From: a virus
Length of the DNA: 23,600 nt
Strand: one strand, 5' to 3'
IMG/VR virus record: IMGVR_UViG_3300000116_000233
Coordinates: 1 to 23,600 of that record
A model generated the notes under the pieces. The model was not told where the DNA came from. It saw only the letters and a list, made by a program, of their open reading frames with translations, and did no database searches. Made by a program: the position numbers and the translations under genes. How positions within the stretch are numbered: the stretch's first letter is position 1; each line of letters begins with the position of its first letter. Positions 1 through 9,912 of this stretch are shown in pieces.

Positions 1-320
1 GTGCCTTGATTAGCTAAAGCTTGAGCTAAACCAGCAACACCTGATCCGCCAGCCGCACCTCTTAATCCACTAAGTAAATTTGCTCTTTGTTGTGCACCTT
101 GCTCTGCTTGAAAGTCTGCTGCAACAGTGTTAACTTGCAAATCTTCCATTGTGTTTTCCATACCTGCGAAAGGATTTTGAAACTCAAAGGATTTAAAAGA
201 TTCTTTTTGATCTGCTAAAACTTGTTGTTGCCTAGCTTGCTGTGCTGATTGTTCTGCTAGCTGAGCATCTGTAGCGCTTGTTATCGATGCTTCAGTTCTT
301 CGTTGTTGTCTTTTTCCCAT
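1..320 (-). CDS. Gln/Ala-rich virion-type protein, partial (N-terminal part only)
   Basis: An open frame starts at an ATG at 320 (N-terminus MGKRQQRRTEASITSATDAQ) and stays open for 106 codons to the left edge, so the C-terminus is missing. The visible part is rich in Gln, Ala and Glu. It runs from a helical, probably coiled-coil region (about residues 10-45), through a short FQNPFAGMENTMEDLQVNT stretch (about 52-70), to the Gly/Ala-rich LLSGLRGAAGGSGVAGLAQA. Proteins of this style recur near the end of structural clusters in marine phages, where I would expect an internal-core or injected virion protein; that role is inference from memory. It starts one base after the stop of the GNAT-like gene, which argues for the same late operon. 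The leader is A/T-only, with no Shine-Dalgarno. Confidence 0.7.
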   Translation of the reverse strand, partial: MGKRQQRRTEASITSATDAQLAEQSAQQARQQQVLADQKESFKSFEFQNPFAGMENTMEDLQVNTVAADFQAEQGAQQRANLLSGLRGAAGGSGVAGLAQALANQG

Positions 321-321
321 A

Positions 322-741
322 TTATAAATATTTAAACGCCTCGTAAGCCGGAGCGTCTCTCTCTATATGCCAACCTTGGCTTTCGTGTATATTTTCCATG
401 TGTTTGTTTACGCATATCGTGAAGAGCATAGACATTCCCCATGTTTCTTTTGCTTCTTTTGCCACGTTTGCTACTAGCAACTCTAGCATTTGTCTTCTAT
501 CTTTTTGCTTGTACTCTGGATTAGATACTAACCATGTTTGATAACCTACTTCAGGGTTCACAGCTGCGTACAAAAAGACTGCTGCTACTGGTATATCATT
601 ACTTTCTATTACAAAACACCTTTCATTGCTTGGTAAGACTTTTCTTTTAACTGGTATTTCTTTCCACCACCATCTCCACCATTCGCAACACATTTCATAA
701 TCACCTTCTTTAAAGGTTCTAAATGTTACTTTGTTATTCAT
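322..741 (-). CDS. GNAT-like acetyltransferase-fold protein, degenerate
   Basis: This 139-residue protein has the overall pattern of a small GNAT N-acyltransferase. An N-terminal strand and helix (VTFRTFKEGDYEMCCEWW) are followed by a central strand region (CFVIESNDIPVAAVFLY, about 43-59). Next come TWLVSNPEYKQKDRRQMLELL, spanning the strand before the acetyl-CoA loop and the following helix, and a final MENIHESQGWHIER segment, as in GNAT C-termini that end with a GF/GW turn. The usual Arg/Gln-x-x-Gly-x-Gly/Ala acetyl-CoA loop is not intact (KQKDRR instead), so catalysis is doubtful. An unusual Trp cluster, WWRWWW, lies at about residues 21-26. Its place among tail and virion genes suggests modification of a virion or host component, or a structural use of the fold; neither can be decided here. 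Confidence 0.6.
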   Translation of the reverse strand: MNNKVTFRTFKEGDYEMCCEWWRWWWKEIPVKRKVLPSNERCFVIESNDIPVAAVFLYAAVNPEVGYQTWLVSNPEYKQKDRRQMLELLVANVAKEAKETWGMSMLFTICVNKHMENIHESQGWHIERDAPAYEAFKYL

Positions 742-789: not shown

Positions 790-1146
790 CTATTTACTAC
801 TTTCGCTTACTTCAGAGCTTATAGCAAACAACTCTACTTTATCAAAAGAATCGTTTACTAACGTAACGTCGGCGAAGTAACCTTTTAAGCCACTAGTGTT
901 TATTCTAGCGTCTTTAGAAAACATTAAAAAATCATTTGCAGAAGGAGCATTAACAGCAGCATCGTCTTCTACTTCTATAAAACTAATATTATTTTCGTTA
1001 ACACCAATGTTTATTATAGGGCCTATTTTTTGCGGCTCTCCAGCAACTTGACCTATACCTACATTTTCTACACTAGTAGAAAAGTAAGCTATATCACCTA
1101 CTTGTAGTGACGTATTTTGCATTTGTGATTTTAAATTTATTATCAT
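790..1146 (-). CDS. Conserved-type small virion-associated protein, unknown function
   Basis: This 118-residue protein ends in TAG and starts within an A/T-rich leader 10 bases after the 500-residue gene. Its N-terminal half (LQVGDIAYFSTSVENVGIGQ, then GPIINIGVNENNISFIEVED) reads as a small beta barrel with a VGD turn. The C-terminal half contains NDFLMFSKDARINTSGLKGY and ends KVELFAISSEVSESSK. The FMFSKD...GYFADV...SEVSESSK pattern resembles small proteins I associate with marine phage structural clusters, but I know no established function. Its position between two virion genes makes a tail or fibre accessory, or an assembly role, the best guess. Confidence 0.6.
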   Translation of the reverse strand: MIINLKSQMQNTSLQVGDIAYFSTSVENVGIGQVAGEPQKIGPIINIGVNENNISFIEVEDDAAVNAPSANDFLMFSKDARINTSGLKGYFADVTLVNDSFDKVELFAISSEVSESSK

Positions 1147-2667: not shown

Positions 2668-5600
2668 TTAATCTACGCTTAGTATTTCACCTAATCCTTG
2701 GAAACTTAAGCTTCCTACTTGATCAGAGCTTTTACTAGAGCTTTCAACTCCTTTTATATAATTAAACCATTTACCTTCTTTTTTAATAAACTCTGATATA
2801 TCACCGATTTCAATATCTGTCAATATACTTGTAGAGTGCCAGCCTGTACTTTGAGCTCCAACTAATGCGTTGCTAGTGTTTATATCACTTACAATAGTTC
2901 CGTCAGCTAACGTATGCTGAGCGTGCGCAAGTCTTTTTGAGTCAGTACCTTCGTAGCTTATAGTGTTAAAAGATTTTACAGAAGAAGGTGATTGATTAAG
3001 AACAGCTGTTATTGTTGAATTATAATTGTTGTTGTAAAATTTATTATATTCTTCGCTCGTATAGTGTTGATACAACGTACCTAATCTCATTGTGAAATAA
3101 TTTTTAGACAAGCTAACGCCATTTTCCGGAATAAAAGATTTGAAACTAACCCATCCTTTAACGTCTTCACTGTAACTAATAGTTTTGTCTTTTAAAATAC
3201 TTGAAGGTACTACAGCTAAAGTTATACTGTCTATGTCTCCTTCTACAACAGCATGATTTTTAGTATATATAACTAAAGTTTCTTGAAGCTCATTAGCTTG
3301 TCTTTCTGCTAAACCACCATGACTAGGAGATATCTCCAGTGTTCTTTGAATATTATAGCTTTCGCCGTTTGCAGTGCTTGAAATACCAAATCTAAAGCCT
3401 TTGTCATTTGCATTAAAGTAATAGCCGTGTACAGAGCCGCTTGTAAGGTCGTTATTAATGGTTAATCTATATGTTTTATCTTCTTCTAAATGCCCTATAA
3501 GTTGTTCTATTTGAACAGGATTATTTATTCCGTCAGTTACGTCAAAAGTAAATTTATTAGATCCTTGATTCCAAATAATACTAGTTTCTATGTTTTGATC
3601 AAAACCACTAAATGTCCAGTTGTCAGCGCTACCTCCAGTAAAGTAATTAGATCTTTTTACAGAAACATTATTTATTGCTCCCGTAAAGCCAGTGTTTGGA
3701 TTTGCGTAAAATGTAAGCTTTTCTGGGTTGTTTTCGTTTATAGCACCGGTAAGCCAAGTTGAATCAATAGCTGCTTGAGCTATTATGTTTGATCCTTGAG
3801 GCTGAACTTTAATAACAGGCGTAGTGTTGTTAAAGTAAAAGTCTACTTCATACTCTCCAGCTTCTGTTATATTATCTATTGTTAATCCTTCAGCGTCTAC
3901 ATTAGTTACTCTTGCTCTTAAAGATCCAGTTAGTGGCGAAGGGCTGTATGGTGTACCTCCGACTAACGCTTGAACTTCAAACTTAAGCGTGTGAGATATA
4001 TTAGTGTTGCTAGTTTCAGGTAAAGATATTGCGCTTTGATTCCAATATACCCCGCCAAAACCACCTGGCGCATCAAAGCAAAGTAAGTTTTCGTAATAAT
4101 AAGCGTCTGGATTTAAGTTAAAAGGCGTGTTTTCAGTTATGAAATCGTACATGTAGTGCGGAGCTTGATAGTTTTCAGCAGGCGTGCTCCAATTTGAAGG
4201 AGCTGTCATAGAAGCTCCTGGGCTAATTTTGTACATTTCTATTGTGTTTACAACAAGCGTTCCATTGTAAACTTGAACTTTAAATTCATCAGCATCACCT
4301 TCGTACTTAAATATACATCTATACTGACTATCACTAATAGCCTGCATTCTCATGCCTTTAATAGAATCTAATGCGTTGCTACCGGTTACTCTACCAAAAG
4401 AAAATTCTGGATAGTTTTCATCACCTGAGTTGTGATTACTATTATTTAGTCTAGCTTGATCTATTGCAGCACTAGAGCCAAGTACAGATCTTATTATTGG
4501 ATCTACTTGATTTTCATCTTGATCATTTGGATCAATATATATGTCTACCATATACCACTCGCCTTGCTCATAGCCATTATCGCCTAAGTCAATATTAGCA
4601 TATGCACTGCTAGCGCCTATATACTCAAATTTAGTTTTACCGTTGAAGTCTAAAATTTCCTCTCTGTAGTACTCACCTTCTACCTGCACACCAGCATTAG
4701 CATCGTATAAGCTCTCAGCCAAAGGATTTGTTCCAGGATTTATATACCAATTATCGCCTTGATCACCTGTAACAGGACCTTGGGTAGCTGGATTCTGTGG
4801 ACCATACTCTTGTTCGGCAGCCCACCAAAAATTTACTCTATCAGAATTTGGAGTTGTCCATGCATACTCGTCTTCAAAGTAATACTCTATTTCAGCAAAA
4901 GCAGGTTGAACACTTCCATCTTCAGTATAAGAACTGCTAACAGCTTTGTGATGTTTTATTTTTATTTTATGACTAAGACTTCTATTCTTAATAGGCATGG
5001 CAGCAGCACCGCCGTAAGCTGCTTGTCTGTAGTTACTTGTAGTAGGAAATTCTGCTATTTCATAATTCTCTCCACCGCTTAAATCTGTATTTAAAGATAA
5101 TTCTGGACCATCTGAAATACTTACCAAAGCACTGCCGCTGTCAACAAAAGAGTTTTTAATTAAGTTTGATTTATATGTTTCGGCAATAGTTAAGTTGTAC
5201 TGCTTCTTATACGCATCATAAGTACCTATACACTCTATATCAAAGTCCTGTAAAGCATCTCTAAAGTAATCGTGCATACCAGCGTCTGATATAGGTGTTA
5301 AACCATCCATAGATAACCTTAGCACCGCGCCTCTTTGTTTGTCTGTAAAATAAGCTCTGTATGATTCAGAAGCAAAAGACTCTGGGTTTTTAGATATACC
5401 GTAATCTCCTGAAAACGGAACAGCCTGACCAAGAACATTTGAAGATGATATTAATTGAGGATTACCATCAGCATTAAACAACGCGTCTTTATTAGCTATT
5501 ATCTTTATAGTTTTATCCTCACAAAAAGCAACTAAGTCCGTGCTTCTTGAAAACAACTTCTGAATACTACCGTAGGTAGGATTTAAGTCTTTTGTAATCT

Positions 5601-8600
5601 TTTCAGCCATGATAAACTGATTAAGATTATTTGTAGCAGAGTTAGAGTTGTATATACCAGAGTATATTAATCCATTTTTTCTTTGTTCTTCTTGATAAGG
5701 TTCTTCTAATGTAGCTGAAGCTTTAGCACCATTAGTAATTTGCATAGTATTAAAGTCGTCTCTAATTCTATTTGATTCGATACCATTTCCAAAATTAAAA
5801 CAATTAAACCAACTTAATCCCATTTGTTTAGTTGGATCTATTTCTGGATTTATTTCAAAAGCACCTACAACAGTGTCGTCTGCCGTGTAAGTTATTGCTC
5901 TAGTTACAACACCGGTAGTGTATCCTCCGTTTTCTCTATAAAATCTAATAGGTTGACCAACGTAATCTACGTTTGCAGGAAACCCTGTGTCTCCTCCACC
6001 AATATCTCTTATTTCAAAACGCTCGTTGCTATTCCATCTTCTTAAATATCTAAACACACCTTGTCCACCTGCAACAAATGGAATTTCAACTCTACAGCCT
6101 TCAGGTGCAAAAACATTTCTATTTTTTTCTGTTAATCTAACAGGTATTGCATCTCCAGCTTCGTAATAAATATCTAACTCAGTGTTATCTTTTGGTTCTA
6201 CTTCCCATATTATTGGAGATTTAGTTACTTCCCATATTATTGGAGATTTAGTTACTTCTCCAGTATTCACCTGATTATTAGCTGTTATAAACTCTATTGT
6301 TACCGGAGAGTCAGTGTCTGGCAAAGCTCCTTCTCCTTGTGTACTAGTAGCACCACTTTCTATAGGATTGTACGATTGCTGTAAAGGATTAATGTCTACT
6401 TGTATTATGTAACAAGTTCTTCTATTGTTTCTATTACCAAAGTTTTGTAATGCGGTTTTCATAGCATTAAACTCATTACCTTCGTTATCAGGATTACCGT
6501 TTACATCAGCAGTGTTAGCCCATGCTAGTACAGCTCGCTCTACACTATGGCTGTCATTGTCATCAAGATCTCCTTTTAAAGTTAAATCATCTCCATCGTA
6601 AGTATACATATTTCTCCAAGAAGTGTGGTTGTATATGTGCTTTTCTTTTACTTGCGATATTATTGTATATTCGGTTGCGTCAGAGTCTCCTACAAACCTA
6701 AAAGTTTTGCCTTCAGATAAATTTTCTATAAAAGTATCTATAGAACTACTACCGTTATTCCAAGTAGGATTCCACTGGCCATTGTGTTGGCTAGCGTAGC
6801 TGTTGTCATAACCAAAGCCATTATCTTGATTAGGAGTTCCTGGATTATCATCTTCATCAGAACTGCTTACATTGTTAGGATTAGATTCCATTTCTACAAA
6901 CTGAATTTGACTACTACCTAATCTTGATCCATCTGAATTAGAAAATACGCCGCCACCCCAAATACCTTGCAGGTATTTAGCTATTCCATTTTCTCCGTTT
7001 ATAGTTACGTCTGTAGGTATGTTTCCATCGTGTAGCAGTGGAGCGCCTGGAGCTAAGTAAGATAAGTGTATGTAGTTTCCTCCATATTCGTAAGTTTCAT
7101 CTGATTGTCTAGTTCCGTATATAGTGTCCTGTGCCCATCTTCTACCACCTACGCTATGTATTTCTTGAGCAGATATTATACCTTCTAGTCCGTTTATAAT
7201 TTGTTGTCCAGTGTATTCGTATCCAGCTTCTACAGTAGGATGCACGGACGAGTTTTGAATAGCATAAAATTCAAAGTCCTGAAAGTTTGTTGATGGTTCG
7301 TCTAATCTTCTCCAACCCCAATAATTACCTTGTTCATCTTGGTTGTTTACAAGTTCTGACCATACTACTTCTGGATATACCACGCTTTCTGCACCACCTA
7401 TCCAACCTTGACCAGAATACTTAGCATAGTTAGTTGAACTAGGATTACTAGCCGCCATGTGCATAGCGTCAATAAAAAATCCTCTAGTAACACCTTGGCT
7501 TTGATACGTTAAAGCTTCCCACTCTGCGTGAGTGTCTGTTAAAGAGCCGCCAGCATGAACTTCTGAAGGCTCTGTGTTGTTATTGTTACCTATATAGTTA
7601 CTTATATAAACAGTAGAAGTAGAGTTAGCTATACTGTTAGATGCGTCTGCTTGAGAATTAGCGCTATCTGCCATATAGTAGGTAGGAGCTGATGCTAGCA
7701 CGAAGTCTCCAAAATCTATATCTAACGAGCTAGTAAGAATCTGCTCACTTAATAATTCATCTTGTAGTAGTTTAACAAAAAACTTACCAGAAAAATTTTC
7801 TCCGTCTACTTTATCTTTTCTTTCAATAGTAAATATTAAACCATCTTTAAGCGTTGCATCTGTTGCTCCATCAGCCAAAGTAGCATCTTCTAAAGTAATT
7901 GGCTTTGATAAAGTTAATGCATAAATACCGTTTTCAGTTAATTCAACGTTAGTTATTGAGTATCTTAAAGAGCTAGTGCCTCCAGCTACTTTCCAAGACA
8001 TGTGCAAATTTCTTTTATCTATATTAAAGCTTTCTCCTCCCTGTGGTAGTAAGTGAGATCCTTTATTACTTATACTCGTCCACGCAGATTTAGTTATATT
8101 TATTATTTGTTGGCCTTCGTTATCTATTCTAGTGTCAGCTGATTCAAATATACCATCTACTTCTGTGAATTGATTACCAGTATTCTCTACGCTACCTAAA
8201 CTATGAAAAGCATAAGATATAGATTCTGGAGCTTCATTAGCGATGCCTAAAACTTTATATCTGTTATTGCTTTGTATTTGATCTGAGTTATCTCCTTCGA
8301 TAGCTCTTTTCATAATAATATAATCTTGCTCTTCTACTTTGTTTCTATCTGAAGAAGGTATAGAAATCCAAATATGGTTTTCTTCGTTCGCAAACTCAGT
8401 TGTTTTAGCCGGCGTATAAGCCCTGTCCATTATTAAGTTATAGTATTCTCCAGAGGTTTGTTTTACGTAAAACTTATAGTAATCAACCCAATCAGGAAAA
8501 CCTTCAAAGTTAGCTAATCTAACGCTTAAAGAAGTTGCGTTGCTAGCAAGAAGTCCTACGCTAGGGTTAAAACGCCCGGCTTTTACGCTTGCATTTTCAG

Positions 8601-9912
8601 AAGTGAAAACAGGAGTTTCTCTTCCGTACTTATCTCCATATACTATTCCTAACTGATAGTCTCTTTCAGACTTTAAAGATGGAAGTATTTCACGGCCTTT
8701 AGTCAAGTCAAAACCAATATGTTTTCTTTTTTCTAAACCTCCTGTTAAGTTTGGTTTATTTAAAAAATTATAACCTTGAGTATAATTACCATACACAAGT
8801 CTGTTTCCAATTATTTCTTGAGACAAAGCTTTTCTTGGTACGTTATCCCAAGGTCTTAAAAATTGATTTGCTGGTAGAGCTGCGTATATATTTTCTGTAG
8901 ATATTGTGTAGCTACCTCTAACATCTATTAAATTTGTGTCAGCTGGCGCAATTCCTTGGTCAATAACATTGCTATTTACTATAGTATTCCAAGCATTGTC
9001 AGTTTTATTTATACTAGCCACAGAGTATATAACAGTAGAATCTTCTTGCTTGTACAATATGTCTATCTCAATAACGTCTTTAGGTATGTCATCTCTAACA
9101 AAACCAACTACATCTATGCTACCAATATCGTTAGACATAGCTGTGTTGTATAACTCTTCTACGTTATACGCTGTATTAGAGTTATAGTTTTTTAAGTTTG
9201 GTGAAAAAACAACATCTGTAAAAGGACCAAACGGAGAGTATTCTCCGTCTCTGTATTTGTATCTAAGACAAAATCTAGGAAAAGTTTTTTCAAATATAGG
9301 TTTTTCATTAGACTGAGTTTTGTTTACCTTTAGCAAAGGAGCGTAAAGCGGTGCTCTTTTAATAACAGTAATGTGCTCTTCTTTTAAATAACCTAAATCA
9401 ACATTGTTTACGTATAGATTTGACTGATGGCTAAAAGAATCTACAGGGTGAAACTGATGTGGAGCTGTTTTAATGTTTACCTTCTTAGGCTCGTTGTCTC
9501 CATCTGTCCAATATAAAAAATCATCAATGATATTTATACCTGTTATCTTTTTACCTGTAAATTTTAAAAACGGCTCTACATCAAAACCATAAAGATCAGA
9601 AAGTATAGACTTAGATGTCTTAGTCTCGTGGTCGTACTCTAGTATTAAATCTCTATTTATACCGTGAGCAAACCAGTAAAGCTTATTATTTTTTTCGTCA
9701 GCAATGCTACCAACACACTTATATCCTTGACCTAAAGCTATTGTTCCAGCTGTATCATTACCTAGTATGTTTTGCACTGTGCCAGCATCAGAATCTTCTG
9801 AAGTTGAAATTTCTATATTCAACGCATCTCTATACTGTCCATTAGGAATCAATCTTTCGTCAAGGTCTTTGTTCATTTTACCTTGAGTGAAAGTGTTTTT
9901 AATTTCTGGCAT
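2668..9912 (-). CDS. Giant tail protein (nozzle/stabilisation-type) with inserted beta modules
   Basis: This 2414-residue protein is about three times the length of the T7 gp12 nozzle protein (794 residues). The N-terminus (MPEIKNTFTQGKMNKDLDER, continuing LIPNGQYRDALN) looks like tail-stabilisation proteins of crAss-like and related podoviruses. Residues about 70-145 hold KLYWFAHG and FLYWTDGDNEPKKVN, which read as beta-propeller blades. Residues about 1447-1556 (LFSRSTDLVAFCEDKTIKII ... YFTDKQRGAVLRLSMDGL ... GMHDYFRDAL) look like a second conserved core block. The C-terminus has TISYSEDVKGWVSFKSFIPE and later SSVKSFNTISYEGTDSKR, again a conserved-style block. Between these blocks, about residues 1578-2242, lies an apparent insert of jelly-roll-like segments. 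A 27-base in-frame tandem repeat falls at about residues 1219-1238. A central role in the short tail is likely; the insert may bind surface glycans. Confidence 0.75.
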   Translation of the reverse strand: MPEIKNTFTQGKMNKDLDERLIPNGQYRDALNIEISTSEDSDAGTVQNILGNDTAGTIALGQGYKCVGSIADEKNNKLYWFAHGINRDLILEYDHETKTSKSILSDLYGFDVEPFLKFTGKKITGINIIDDFLYWTDGDNEPKKVNIKTAPHQFHPVDSFSHQSNLYVNNVDLGYLKEEHITVIKRAPLYAPLLKVNKTQSNEKPIFEKTFPRFCLRYKYRDGEYSPFGPFTDVVFSPNLKNYNSNTAYNVEELYNTAMSNDIGSIDVVGFVRDDIPKDVIEIDILYKQEDSTVIYSVASINKTDNAWNTIVNSNVIDQGIAPADTNLIDVRGSYTISTENIYAALPANQFLRPWDNVPRKALSQEIIGNRLVYGNYTQGYNFLNKPNLTGGLEKRKHIGFDLTKGREILPSLKSERDYQLGIVYGDKYGRETPVFTSENASVKAGRFNPSVGLLASNATSLSVRLANFEGFPDWVDYYKFYVKQTSGEYYNLIMDRAYTPAKTTEFANEENHIWISIPSSDRNKVEEQDYIIMKRAIEGDNSDQIQSNNRYKVLGIANEAPESISYAFHSLGSVENTGNQFTEVDGIFESADTRIDNEGQQIINITKSAWTSISNKGSHLLPQGGESFNIDKRNLHMSWKVAGGTSSLRYSITNVELTENGIYALTLSKPITLEDATLADGATDATLKDGLIFTIERKDKVDGENFSGKFFVKLLQDELLSEQILTSSLDIDFGDFVLASAPTYYMADSANSQADASNSIANSTSTVYISNYIGNNNNTEPSEVHAGGSLTDTHAEWEALTYQSQGVTRGFFIDAMHMAASNPSSTNYAKYSGQGWIGGAESVVYPEVVWSELVNNQDEQGNYWGWRRLDEPSTNFQDFEFYAIQNSSVHPTVEAGYEYTGQQIINGLEGIISAQEIHSVGGRRWAQDTIYGTRQSDETYEYGGNYIHLSYLAPGAPLLHDGNIPTDVTINGENGIAKYLQGIWGGGVFSNSDGSRLGSSQIQFVEMESNPNNVSSSDEDDNPGTPNQDNGFGYDNSYASQHNGQWNPTWNNGSSSIDTFIENLSEGKTFRFVGDSDATEYTIISQVKEKHIYNHTSWRNMYTYDGDDLTLKGDLDDNDSHSVERAVLAWANTADVNGNPDNEGNEFNAMKTALQNFGNRNNRRTCYIIQVDINPLQQSYNPIESGATSTQGEGALPDTDSPVTIEFITANNQVNTGEVTKSPIIWEVTKSPIIWEVEPKDNTELDIYYEAGDAIPVRLTEKNRNVFAPEGCRVEIPFVAGGQGVFRYLRRWNSNERFEIRDIGGGDTGFPANVDYVGQPIRFYRENGGYTTGVVTRAITYTADDTVVGAFEINPEIDPTKQMGLSWFNCFNFGNGIESNRIRDDFNTMQITNGAKASATLEEPYQEEQRKNGLIYSGIYNSNSATNNLNQFIMAEKITKDLNPTYGSIQKLFSRSTDLVAFCEDKTIKIIANKDALFNADGNPQLISSSNVLGQAVPFSGDYGISKNPESFASESYRAYFTDKQRGAVLRLSMDGLTPISDAGMHDYFRDALQDFDIECIGTYDAYKKQYNLTIAETYKSNLIKNSFVDSGSALVSISDGPELSLNTDLSGGENYEIAEFPTTSNYRQAAYGGAAAMPIKNRSLSHKIKIKHHKAVSSSYTEDGSVQPAFAEIEYYFEDEYAWTTPNSDRVNFWWAAEQEYGPQNPATQGPVTGDQGDNWYINPGTNPLAESLYDANAGVQVEGEYYREEILDFNGKTKFEYIGASSAYANIDLGDNGYEQGEWYMVDIYIDPNDQDENQVDPIIRSVLGSSAAIDQARLNNSNHNSGDENYPEFSFGRVTGSNALDSIKGMRMQAISDSQYRCIFKYEGDADEFKVQVYNGTLVVNTIEMYKISPGASMTAPSNWSTPAENYQAPHYMYDFITENTPFNLNPDAYYYENLLCFDAPGGFGGVYWNQSAISLPETSNTNISHTLKFEVQALVGGTPYSPSPLTGSLRARVTNVDAEGLTIDNITEAGEYEVDFYFNNTTPVIKVQPQGSNIIAQAAIDSTWLTGAINENNPEKLTFYANPNTGFTGAINNVSVKRSNYFTGGSADNWTFSGFDQNIETSIIWNQGSNKFTFDVTDGINNPVQIEQLIGHLEEDKTYRLTINNDLTSGSVHGYYFNANDKGFRFGISSTANGESYNIQRTLEISPSHGGLAERQANELQETLVIYTKNHAVVEGDIDSITLAVVPSSILKDKTISYSEDVKGWVSFKSFIPENGVSLSKNYFTMRLGTLYQHYTSEEYNKFYNNNYNSTITAVLNQSPSSVKSFNTISYEGTDSKRLAHAQHTLADGTIVSDINTSNALVGAQSTGWHSTSILTDIEIGDISEFIKKEGKWFNYIKGVESSSKSSDQVGSLSFQGLGEILSVD
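3190..5180 (-). other. Insert of about 660 residues, carbohydrate-binding-like beta modules
   Basis: This part of the giant tail gene (residues about 1578-2242) separates two blocks that look like conserved core of the family. It has at least three segments, each resembling CBM4/9-type jelly rolls, with a closing strand of the kind IxxIxLxxV: VVNTIEMYKISPG (near 4220-4250), INNVSVKRSN (near 3650-3680) and DIDSITLAVVPSS (near 3210-3240). The last segment opens with an aromatic Trp strand (NYFTGGSADNWTFSGFDQN). Boundaries are approximate and drawn by eye. That the modules bind carbohydrate is inference from fold-like patterns; no catalytic motif was seen. Confidence 0.4.
6199..6258 (-). repeat. 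27-bp in-frame tandem repeat, about 2.2 copies
   Basis: The sequence from 6199 to 6258 repeats with a period of exactly 27 bases and no mismatch. It encodes TKSPIIWEV twice inside the giant tail protein (EVTKSPIIWEVTKSPIIWEV). Perfect identity at DNA level means a recent duplication or slippage event, and the reading frame is kept. An assembly artefact cannot be ruled out from sequence alone. Confidence 0.95.

Follow-up and report, generated by a model that had tools for sequence, protein, structure and literature searches.

The longest open reading frame of the window, as the whole 23,600-base virus record analysed here is called, encodes a giant tail protein in which two blocks of conserved core are separated by several hundred residues, and the question raised by this locus is what the intervening segment is and what it could do on a virion. 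The gene (2668..9912(-), a single open frame, 2414 aa) was compared with Pfam and PHROGs. The family crAss_MUZ_C (PF25729), which marks the muzzle (MUZ) of Crassvirales, was matched above its cut-off (38.6 bits versus 27) over residues 2288-2387, and the whole product matched phrog_14478 with an E-value of 2.7e-137. A profile of the muzzle core from 24 relatives without a large insert (A5) aligned in hhalign with residues 1054-1281 of phi-crAss001 gp44 (96.4%, E 1.4e-9, 213 columns); searched against PDB sequences, this profile retrieved no chain of a muzzle. Gp44, which thus shares with the window protein the C-terminal domain family and an alignable core, is described in PMC10172136 as the muzzle, a propeller-containing gatekeeper forming a hexamer at the tail tip and gating the exit. 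Genes for portal and terminase were recognised by PHROG upstream of the muzzle gene, together with virion structural PHROGs and one gene with a SU10_adaptor match below cut-off. Judged by sequence, the 2414-aa product is a crassvirus-type muzzle protein, related to nozzles, and the initial annotation had rightly placed the scaffold in the tail body. The host is likely to be flavobacterial, since tblastn places phages of Flavobacterium, Cellulophaga, Tenacibaculum and Maribacter nearest among isolates and relatives were met in contigs assigned to Flavobacteriales, Flavobacteriaceae and Bacteroidetes, although Maricaulis is also among the bins.

The limits of the segment were set using profile HMMs of the two flanking blocks (best 80 IMG/VR loci), the first of which stops at residue 1576 while the second resumes at residue 2243, so that the part between them comprises residues 1577-2242 (3187..5184(-), 666 aa), in good agreement with the approximately 660 residues at 3190-5180 first proposed. 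The core before it, bounded by HMM, covers residues 1428-1576 (5185..5631(-)), and its last strand is strand 1 of a hairpin (..GTYDAYKKQYNLTI); the core after it, bounded by HMM and Pfam, covers residues 2243-2411 (2680..3186(-)), opens with strand 2 of that hairpin (TISYSEDVKGWVSFKSF) and contains the PF25729 domain. The structure prediction has strands at residues 1561-1566 and 1571-1576, at the end of the core before the site. The segment is missing in the close relatives L003, L008 and L046. The blocks of L003 and L008 are 44% identical to those of the window before the site and 49% identical after it, and are only 10-11 residues apart; the gap in L046 is 10 residues, and the genes downstream of the muzzle in all three match the neighbours of the window gene. 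In the A5 alignment the site is a short loop running from ..YNLTL to TxSFxExVKGWxSFKSF. Residues 1577-2242 are therefore an optional part, cleanly inserted into a single short beta-hairpin of the muzzle core, and versions with and without it, joined at a clean loop, coexist as they do in 'evolved Dit'-type proteins. No Pfam family was matched by the window insert, and tblastn against phages gave no match at E <= 0.01, so the cassette is not detectable in any isolate searched. The insert alone gave one chance match against PDB sequences (E 0.77), the profile of the insert alignment (A1) likewise found a chance match at best (Rab5, E 0.21), and PHROGs matched one family, in 1 of 32 inserts.

Residues 1560-2260 were modelled with AlphaFold2 using an alignment with 31 relatives, and the model (mean pLDDT 74.2, pTM 0.55) is all beta except for short helices. 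The best VIA-align match was a putative sugar-binding protein (3see; Z 11.8, rmsd 3.3, 152 aligned), followed by CBM4-2 (2y6j; Z 11.7), CBM4 (1gui; 11.5), a hyaluronan-binding module (4d0q; 11.4), CBM16 (Z 11.0) and a porphyran CBM (8xmz; Z 11.0); jelly rolls that do not bind sugars, namely Stig cyclases (Z 10.1-10.7) and Eph ligand-binding domains, were also retrieved. By predicted fold, with Z up to 11.8 at a pLDDT of 74.2, the inserted module is thus of the CBM type, as the initial annotation had supposed in calling it CBM4/9-like, although its attribution to that family did not hold: none of 30 records passed the CBM_4_9 (PF02018) cut-off of 25.9 bits and the window record gave no match to it at E <= 1. 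Since no Pfam family was matched either, the likeness to CBMs is one of fold and not of family. Nor did the described richness in Asn, Ser and Gly stand out, the segment containing 9.3, 8.7 and 8.1% of these residues versus 8.7, 8.0 and 8.0% in residues 1-1578. Foldseek ranked Cry and Vip3 proteins first (TM ~0.13), which were taken to share jelly-roll parts with the insert and not to indicate a toxin; a BFVD search with the insert model retrieved numerous long proteins of tail type, again at TM ~0.13, and did not help to choose between readings.

The alignment ranges suggest that one roll is nested within another. The alignments to the outer roll span model residues 20-25 to 676 with just 120-160 residues aligned, and those to the inner roll span 43..529 (2y6j) and 42..530 (8xmz); such long spans with so few aligned residues would mean that strand 1 of each roll comes from the beginning of the insert and the remaining strands from its end. 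In the model, the outer CBM-type jelly roll would consist of strand 1 at about residues 1582-1599 (5116..5169(-), boundary inferred from the VIA alignment ranges) and a remainder at about residues 2094-2235 (3208..3633(-); 3see Z 11.8, 1gui Z 11.5), and the inner one of strand 1 at about residues 1602-1619 (5056-5109(-), from the VIA alignment ranges) and a remainder at about residues 1937-2088 (3649..4104(-), from the 2y6j and 8xmz alignments). Between the two parts of the inner roll lies a middle beta module at about residues 1752-1898 (4219..4659(-)), with strands at pLDDT ~75-86, which corresponds to segment M of 39 inserts. The two rolls are paralogous (hhalign of profiles, 95.9%), and the insert contains at least two CBM-type jelly rolls, apparently nested. 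Every one of the 39 same-kind inserts has matches to four segments, N (residues 1579-1660), M, I and C, a few of those to M and I being weak, and the order is kept in 38; 12 of these inserts lie, to judge by contig names, on contigs outside the set from which the segment profiles were made. The match to I overlaps that to C in L214, and the matches to N and M share an edge overlap in L207. Length varies chiefly between segments N and M. L006 carries an extra internal module, modelled with a mean pLDDT of 58; this weak model matched CBM4-2 with Z 9.9 and gave no Foldseek match at E <= 0.001.

The same hairpin is used, and cut, elsewhere. The muzzle gene is divided in two at this point in five records, phi18:3, MW202828, L044, L052 and L223, amounting to 4 of 214 rows with phi18:3 additional; by contrast, a break between the first 147 residues and the block, which puts them on different ORFs, occurs in 5 of 211 rows, with no start detected in 3 further rows, although the stretch between them is ~1,280 residues long. 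Sequencing error may be behind some of the cuts. In the cultured Cellulophaga phage phi18:3 (NC_021794), gp114 holds the first block followed by ~500 residues matching Big_9 (E 2.8e-20) and cadherin-like families, gp115 begins with the second block (MPKTITYSEKNKGWTSF..) and matches PF25729 at 1.5e-19, and the record credits both proteins to MS/MS proteomics. This homologous muzzle has foreign material at the same hairpin as the window, differing in its Big_9/cadherin-like extension and in the splitting of the chain into two genes. In MW202828, cut at the same place, the first half of the muzzle carries 353 extra residues, and between the halves stands an ORF of 183 aa that bears the annotation 'putative glycosidase'. 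The insert profile scored below 1% in hhalign against the extensions of phi18:3 and MW202828, which are thus not detectably related to the insert. L233 has 434 unrelated residues at the site, including GCTDP..DDGSC repeats like those in the C-tails of other muzzles. Repeats of the form GCxDxxxxNYxPxATxDDGSC occur in C-tails of insert-less muzzles (e.g. L229, L254 and L273), the strict pattern being present in 32 of 206 C-tails and in 30 of the 105 longer than 100 aa; fn3 is matched by other C-tails, and HINT/intein profiles by one member. In the Maribacter phage Panino two overlapping frames (L318:4998-7838, 7775-8908) divide the muzzle inside the conserved block before the hairpin, through either an error or a frameshift. 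The glycosidase annotation in MW202828 and the presence among the fold matches of cyclases and of CBM-like parts of glycosidases could be taken to mean that the insert is a tail-borne enzyme, a depolymerase or glycosidase, instead of a binding module. This is very improbable, as the window insert contains no enzyme family and none convincing was found among 32 members, the annotated gene is itself without a Pfam match, and the top alignments cover CBM parts only.

Divergence along the gene was measured against the relative L085, with which the window shares 99.3% amino-acid identity in the block before the insert, 63.4% in the insert and 87.8% in the block after it, bearing out the idea that divergence is concentrated in the segment. 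Synonymous sites behave likewise: pS is 0.64 in residues 1579-2100 and 0.34 in the remaining gene, and peaks at 0.42 among 107 other windows of the same length. Between these two genomes the insert is the fastest-diverging part of the gene, synonymous sites included. The raised synonymous divergence suggests that the insert was exchanged as a cassette with an older allele; high values are not restricted to the insert, upstream genes having dS of 0.78-1.05, so that these genomes are generally mosaic. The dN/dS of the insert is 0.26, and positive selection is accordingly not seen in it. Elsewhere in the gene, a 27-bp tandem repeat of 2.5 copies (6199-6267) produces a 9-aa duplication at muzzle residues ~1219-1227 that is missing in the otherwise 99% identical L086.

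Jelly rolls often act as assembly modules. The insert might thus be an architectural or protective decoration that stabilises the muzzle subunits or docks tail proteins, and not a binder of the host surface, a reading with which the predominance of purifying selection agrees. Moreover, the material at the site is in some phages the C-terminal extension of one virion protein, with the C-terminus of the muzzle on the next, and local assembly roles are conceivable for that reason. A part needed in this way sits poorly with its complete loss from L003, L008 and L046, where the neighbouring genes are retained, and with low identity between inserts whose surrounding cores are near-identical, and we regard a purely structural role as rather improbable.

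For the history of the insert, homologues were sampled by similarity to the query (best 80 loci per scan, a first scan and four more), three annotated phages were added, and the 294 loci were reduced to 214 distinct first blocks, of which 206 have both blocks on one ORF, 4 are split and 4 are without the second block. Among the 206 unsplit homologues the site measures fewer than 30 residues in 139, 30-299 in 27, 300-399 in none and at least 400 in 40; the segment is thus far from being carried by homologues of all lengths. The mid-sized class (60-399 residues) comprises 18 rows, in none of which segments of the window cassette were matched, and the sequences of L051, L132, L232, L237, L198 and L205 were inspected. 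L198 and L205 were rejected as hairpin insertions, the conserved second strand following the hairpin directly and the extra length lying further on; the same probably applies to L199, which was likewise left out of the count of hairpin insertions. In a tree of 82 rows the insert is confined to one clade of 37 rows (98/92), within which L003 and L008 are nested in a supported sub-group and L046 in a weaker one; in the remaining insert-less rows of this clade the contig ends inside the insert, with at least 258 insert residues already present. A quick tree of 214 rows has one clade (SH-aLRT 97) containing 38 of the 40 insert rows, together with the intact insert-less rows L046, L213, L169 and L097 (the last sharing a contig with L008). 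The two insert rows outside it are L233 and L103; L103, which shares a contig with L014, is nevertheless a member of the insert clade in the more careful tree of 82 rows. L082-L084 form long branches. The simplest reading of these trees would be one gain in one clade, at least two losses and a separate acquisition in L233.

An apparent mutual exclusion between the insert and a long C-tail was also considered. Raw counts were 1 row with an insert >300 and a C-tail >100, 39 with an insert >300 and a C-tail <=100, 89 with a long C-tail and no insert, and 56 with neither (Fisher p 1e-12, kinship ignored). Insert-less members of the insert clade likewise have short C-tails, and of 5 pairs that are independent in the tree 0-1 show a difference in the C-tail, so the association is a clade effect in the tree and was dropped. 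Its disappearance once kinship is counted, and the concentration of 38 of 40 insert-bearing rows in one clade, would suit a clade trait that was gained once, drifted fast under weak constraint and was occasionally lost, with no adaptive exchange. This account is unlikely, if worth keeping in mind: relaxed amino-acid constraint alone would not raise synonymous divergence as well, and segments N, M and C persist in every one of the 39 same-kind inserts.

It had further been suggested that the insert takes the place of a separate fibre, with the lack of a recognisable fibre in the window as support. A record of 23.6 kb says little by such an absence, and the suggestion is not supported by G001 (L025), which has the insert and encodes a Peptidase_S74 tail-fibre protein as well as a Laminin_G_3 protein. 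Fibre genes were sought by family in G001 and G003 only, and three candidate genes of G003 matched none of the fibre families. Large genes with sub-threshold CBM_4_9 matches lie upstream of the terminase both in G006 (L002; with insert; 1005-aa frame, L322:3535-6531(-)) and in G030 (L008; without insert; L321:2-3460(+)), and are candidates for another adhesin. Because insert-bearing relatives also encode fibre- or lectin-like proteins, the insert would appear to add to separate fibres and not to replace them. Three other genes, L309:16745-19042(-) in G003, L305:14832-17222(-) in G001 and L324:8125-11423(-) in G031, have signal-peptide-like starts, the first ending in a Por_Secre_tail domain (type IX secretion sorting; E 3.1e-10, above cut-off), and apparently encode secreted host-type proteins. 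Near the muzzle gene, the window 790-1146 product (118 aa) is joined with the muzzle C-core in phrog_18548 and phrog_38031, as noted for this gene and for L082:13218-14018, and the C-half of the MW202828 muzzle ends in sequence resembling it by eye; on the strength of the joining PHROGs and this ending, the two may be one protein in other phages. The window 322-741 product (139 aa), among structural genes, matches phrog_17252 of unknown function (E 2.7e-15) and gives the impression, no firmer than that, of a GNAT acetyltransferase.

The segment is, in our view, probably an optional adhesin cassette whose nested CBM-type jelly rolls are set into a beta-hairpin towards the C-terminus, in the propeller, of a crassvirus-type muzzle. 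This view draws on the scaffold family, the clean indel, the history, the fast divergence and the reuse of the hairpin, and on the modelled fold and nesting; the hairpin would lie within the propeller according to the domain order given in PMC10172136, and glycan binding is proposed by analogy. Against it weigh the fold matches to jelly rolls that do not bind sugars, the low-TM Cry and Vip3 matches, the negative Pfam and CBM_4_9 searches, the pTM of 0.55, the dN/dS of 0.26 and the high synonymous divergence of upstream genes. Phage-tail modules of the CBM jelly-roll fold are known as adhesins, as PMC10688798 and PMC7291167 relate. There, the 'evolved' Dit, Tal and MTP of siphophages are likewise tail proteins with or without loop-inserted CBMs, which resemble 1GUI/1GU3, as does the window insert, and act beside the main receptor-binding protein. 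In skunaviruses, hosts that produce EPS could again be infected once a Dit with a CBM had been cloned (PMC10688798), and the host recognised by the main receptor-binding protein is also bound by evolved Dits (PMC7291167). The window scaffold is a podovirus-type muzzle (crAss_MUZ_C, phrog_14478) and so not a Dit, Tal or MTP, and it differs further in that the hosts are presumably Bacteroidota, the modules are apparently nested and the chains of some relatives are cut at the loop. By analogy with the CBM-bearing Dit, a six-copy polysaccharide-binding ring is proposed. If the muzzle is hexameric as in crAss001, six cassettes would surround the tail exit, where weak but multivalent binding to polysaccharide on the surface of the host, a member of the Bacteroidota and probably a flavobacterium, could keep the tail tip on the cell, so that the muzzle would be able to open; like the CBM-decorated 'evolved Dit' of siphophages, they would work alongside separate fibres.

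Among crAss-like phages, carbohydrate-binding-type modules are also present in the virion as BACON-domain and lectin-type tail spikes, but these BACON modules sit on separate fibre or spike proteins (PMC10136315), whereas the CBM-type rolls of the window lie inside the muzzle. Muzzle length is reported to vary through insertions, and those described in PMC10172136 lie in the crass and IG2 regions at gp44 318-1021, whereas the insertion of the window corresponds to gp44 1198/1199, a hairpin without an extra loop in crAss001. In 56 of the 60 records listed out of 73, from gut-type crassviruses and Cellulophaga phi14:2, the alignment continues unbroken for at least 80 residues past the site, and the extra residues over the whole stretch number no more than 24. 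Searches of the open-licence PMC literature turned up no description of CBM insertions at the hairpin site in either a muzzle or a nozzle. More tentatively, and with rather less confidence than not, the hairpin may be a general plug-in socket of flavobacterial crAss-like phages, into which unrelated adhesin cassettes, namely nested CBM jelly rolls, Ig/cadherin modules and DDGSC repeats, are repeatedly docked, exchanged through recombination and stacked within each other, even to the point of breaking the chain into two virion proteins; as the socket sits on the exit-gating protein, engagement of the adhesin could help trigger opening.

Little is known about the parts with which crAss-like phages bind their receptors, and fibres are usually suspected. 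Here it is the gatekeeper that bears, in a single defined loop, modules which are optional, diverge fast and are CBM-like. This extends the 'evolved Dit' theme to a second, unrelated tail scaffold and partly explains why one conserved part has been annotated as muzzles of anything from ~1,200 to 3,500 aa or as a pair of 'structural proteins'. The precise site and the insert-less relatives are available for testing how the muzzle senses the cell.
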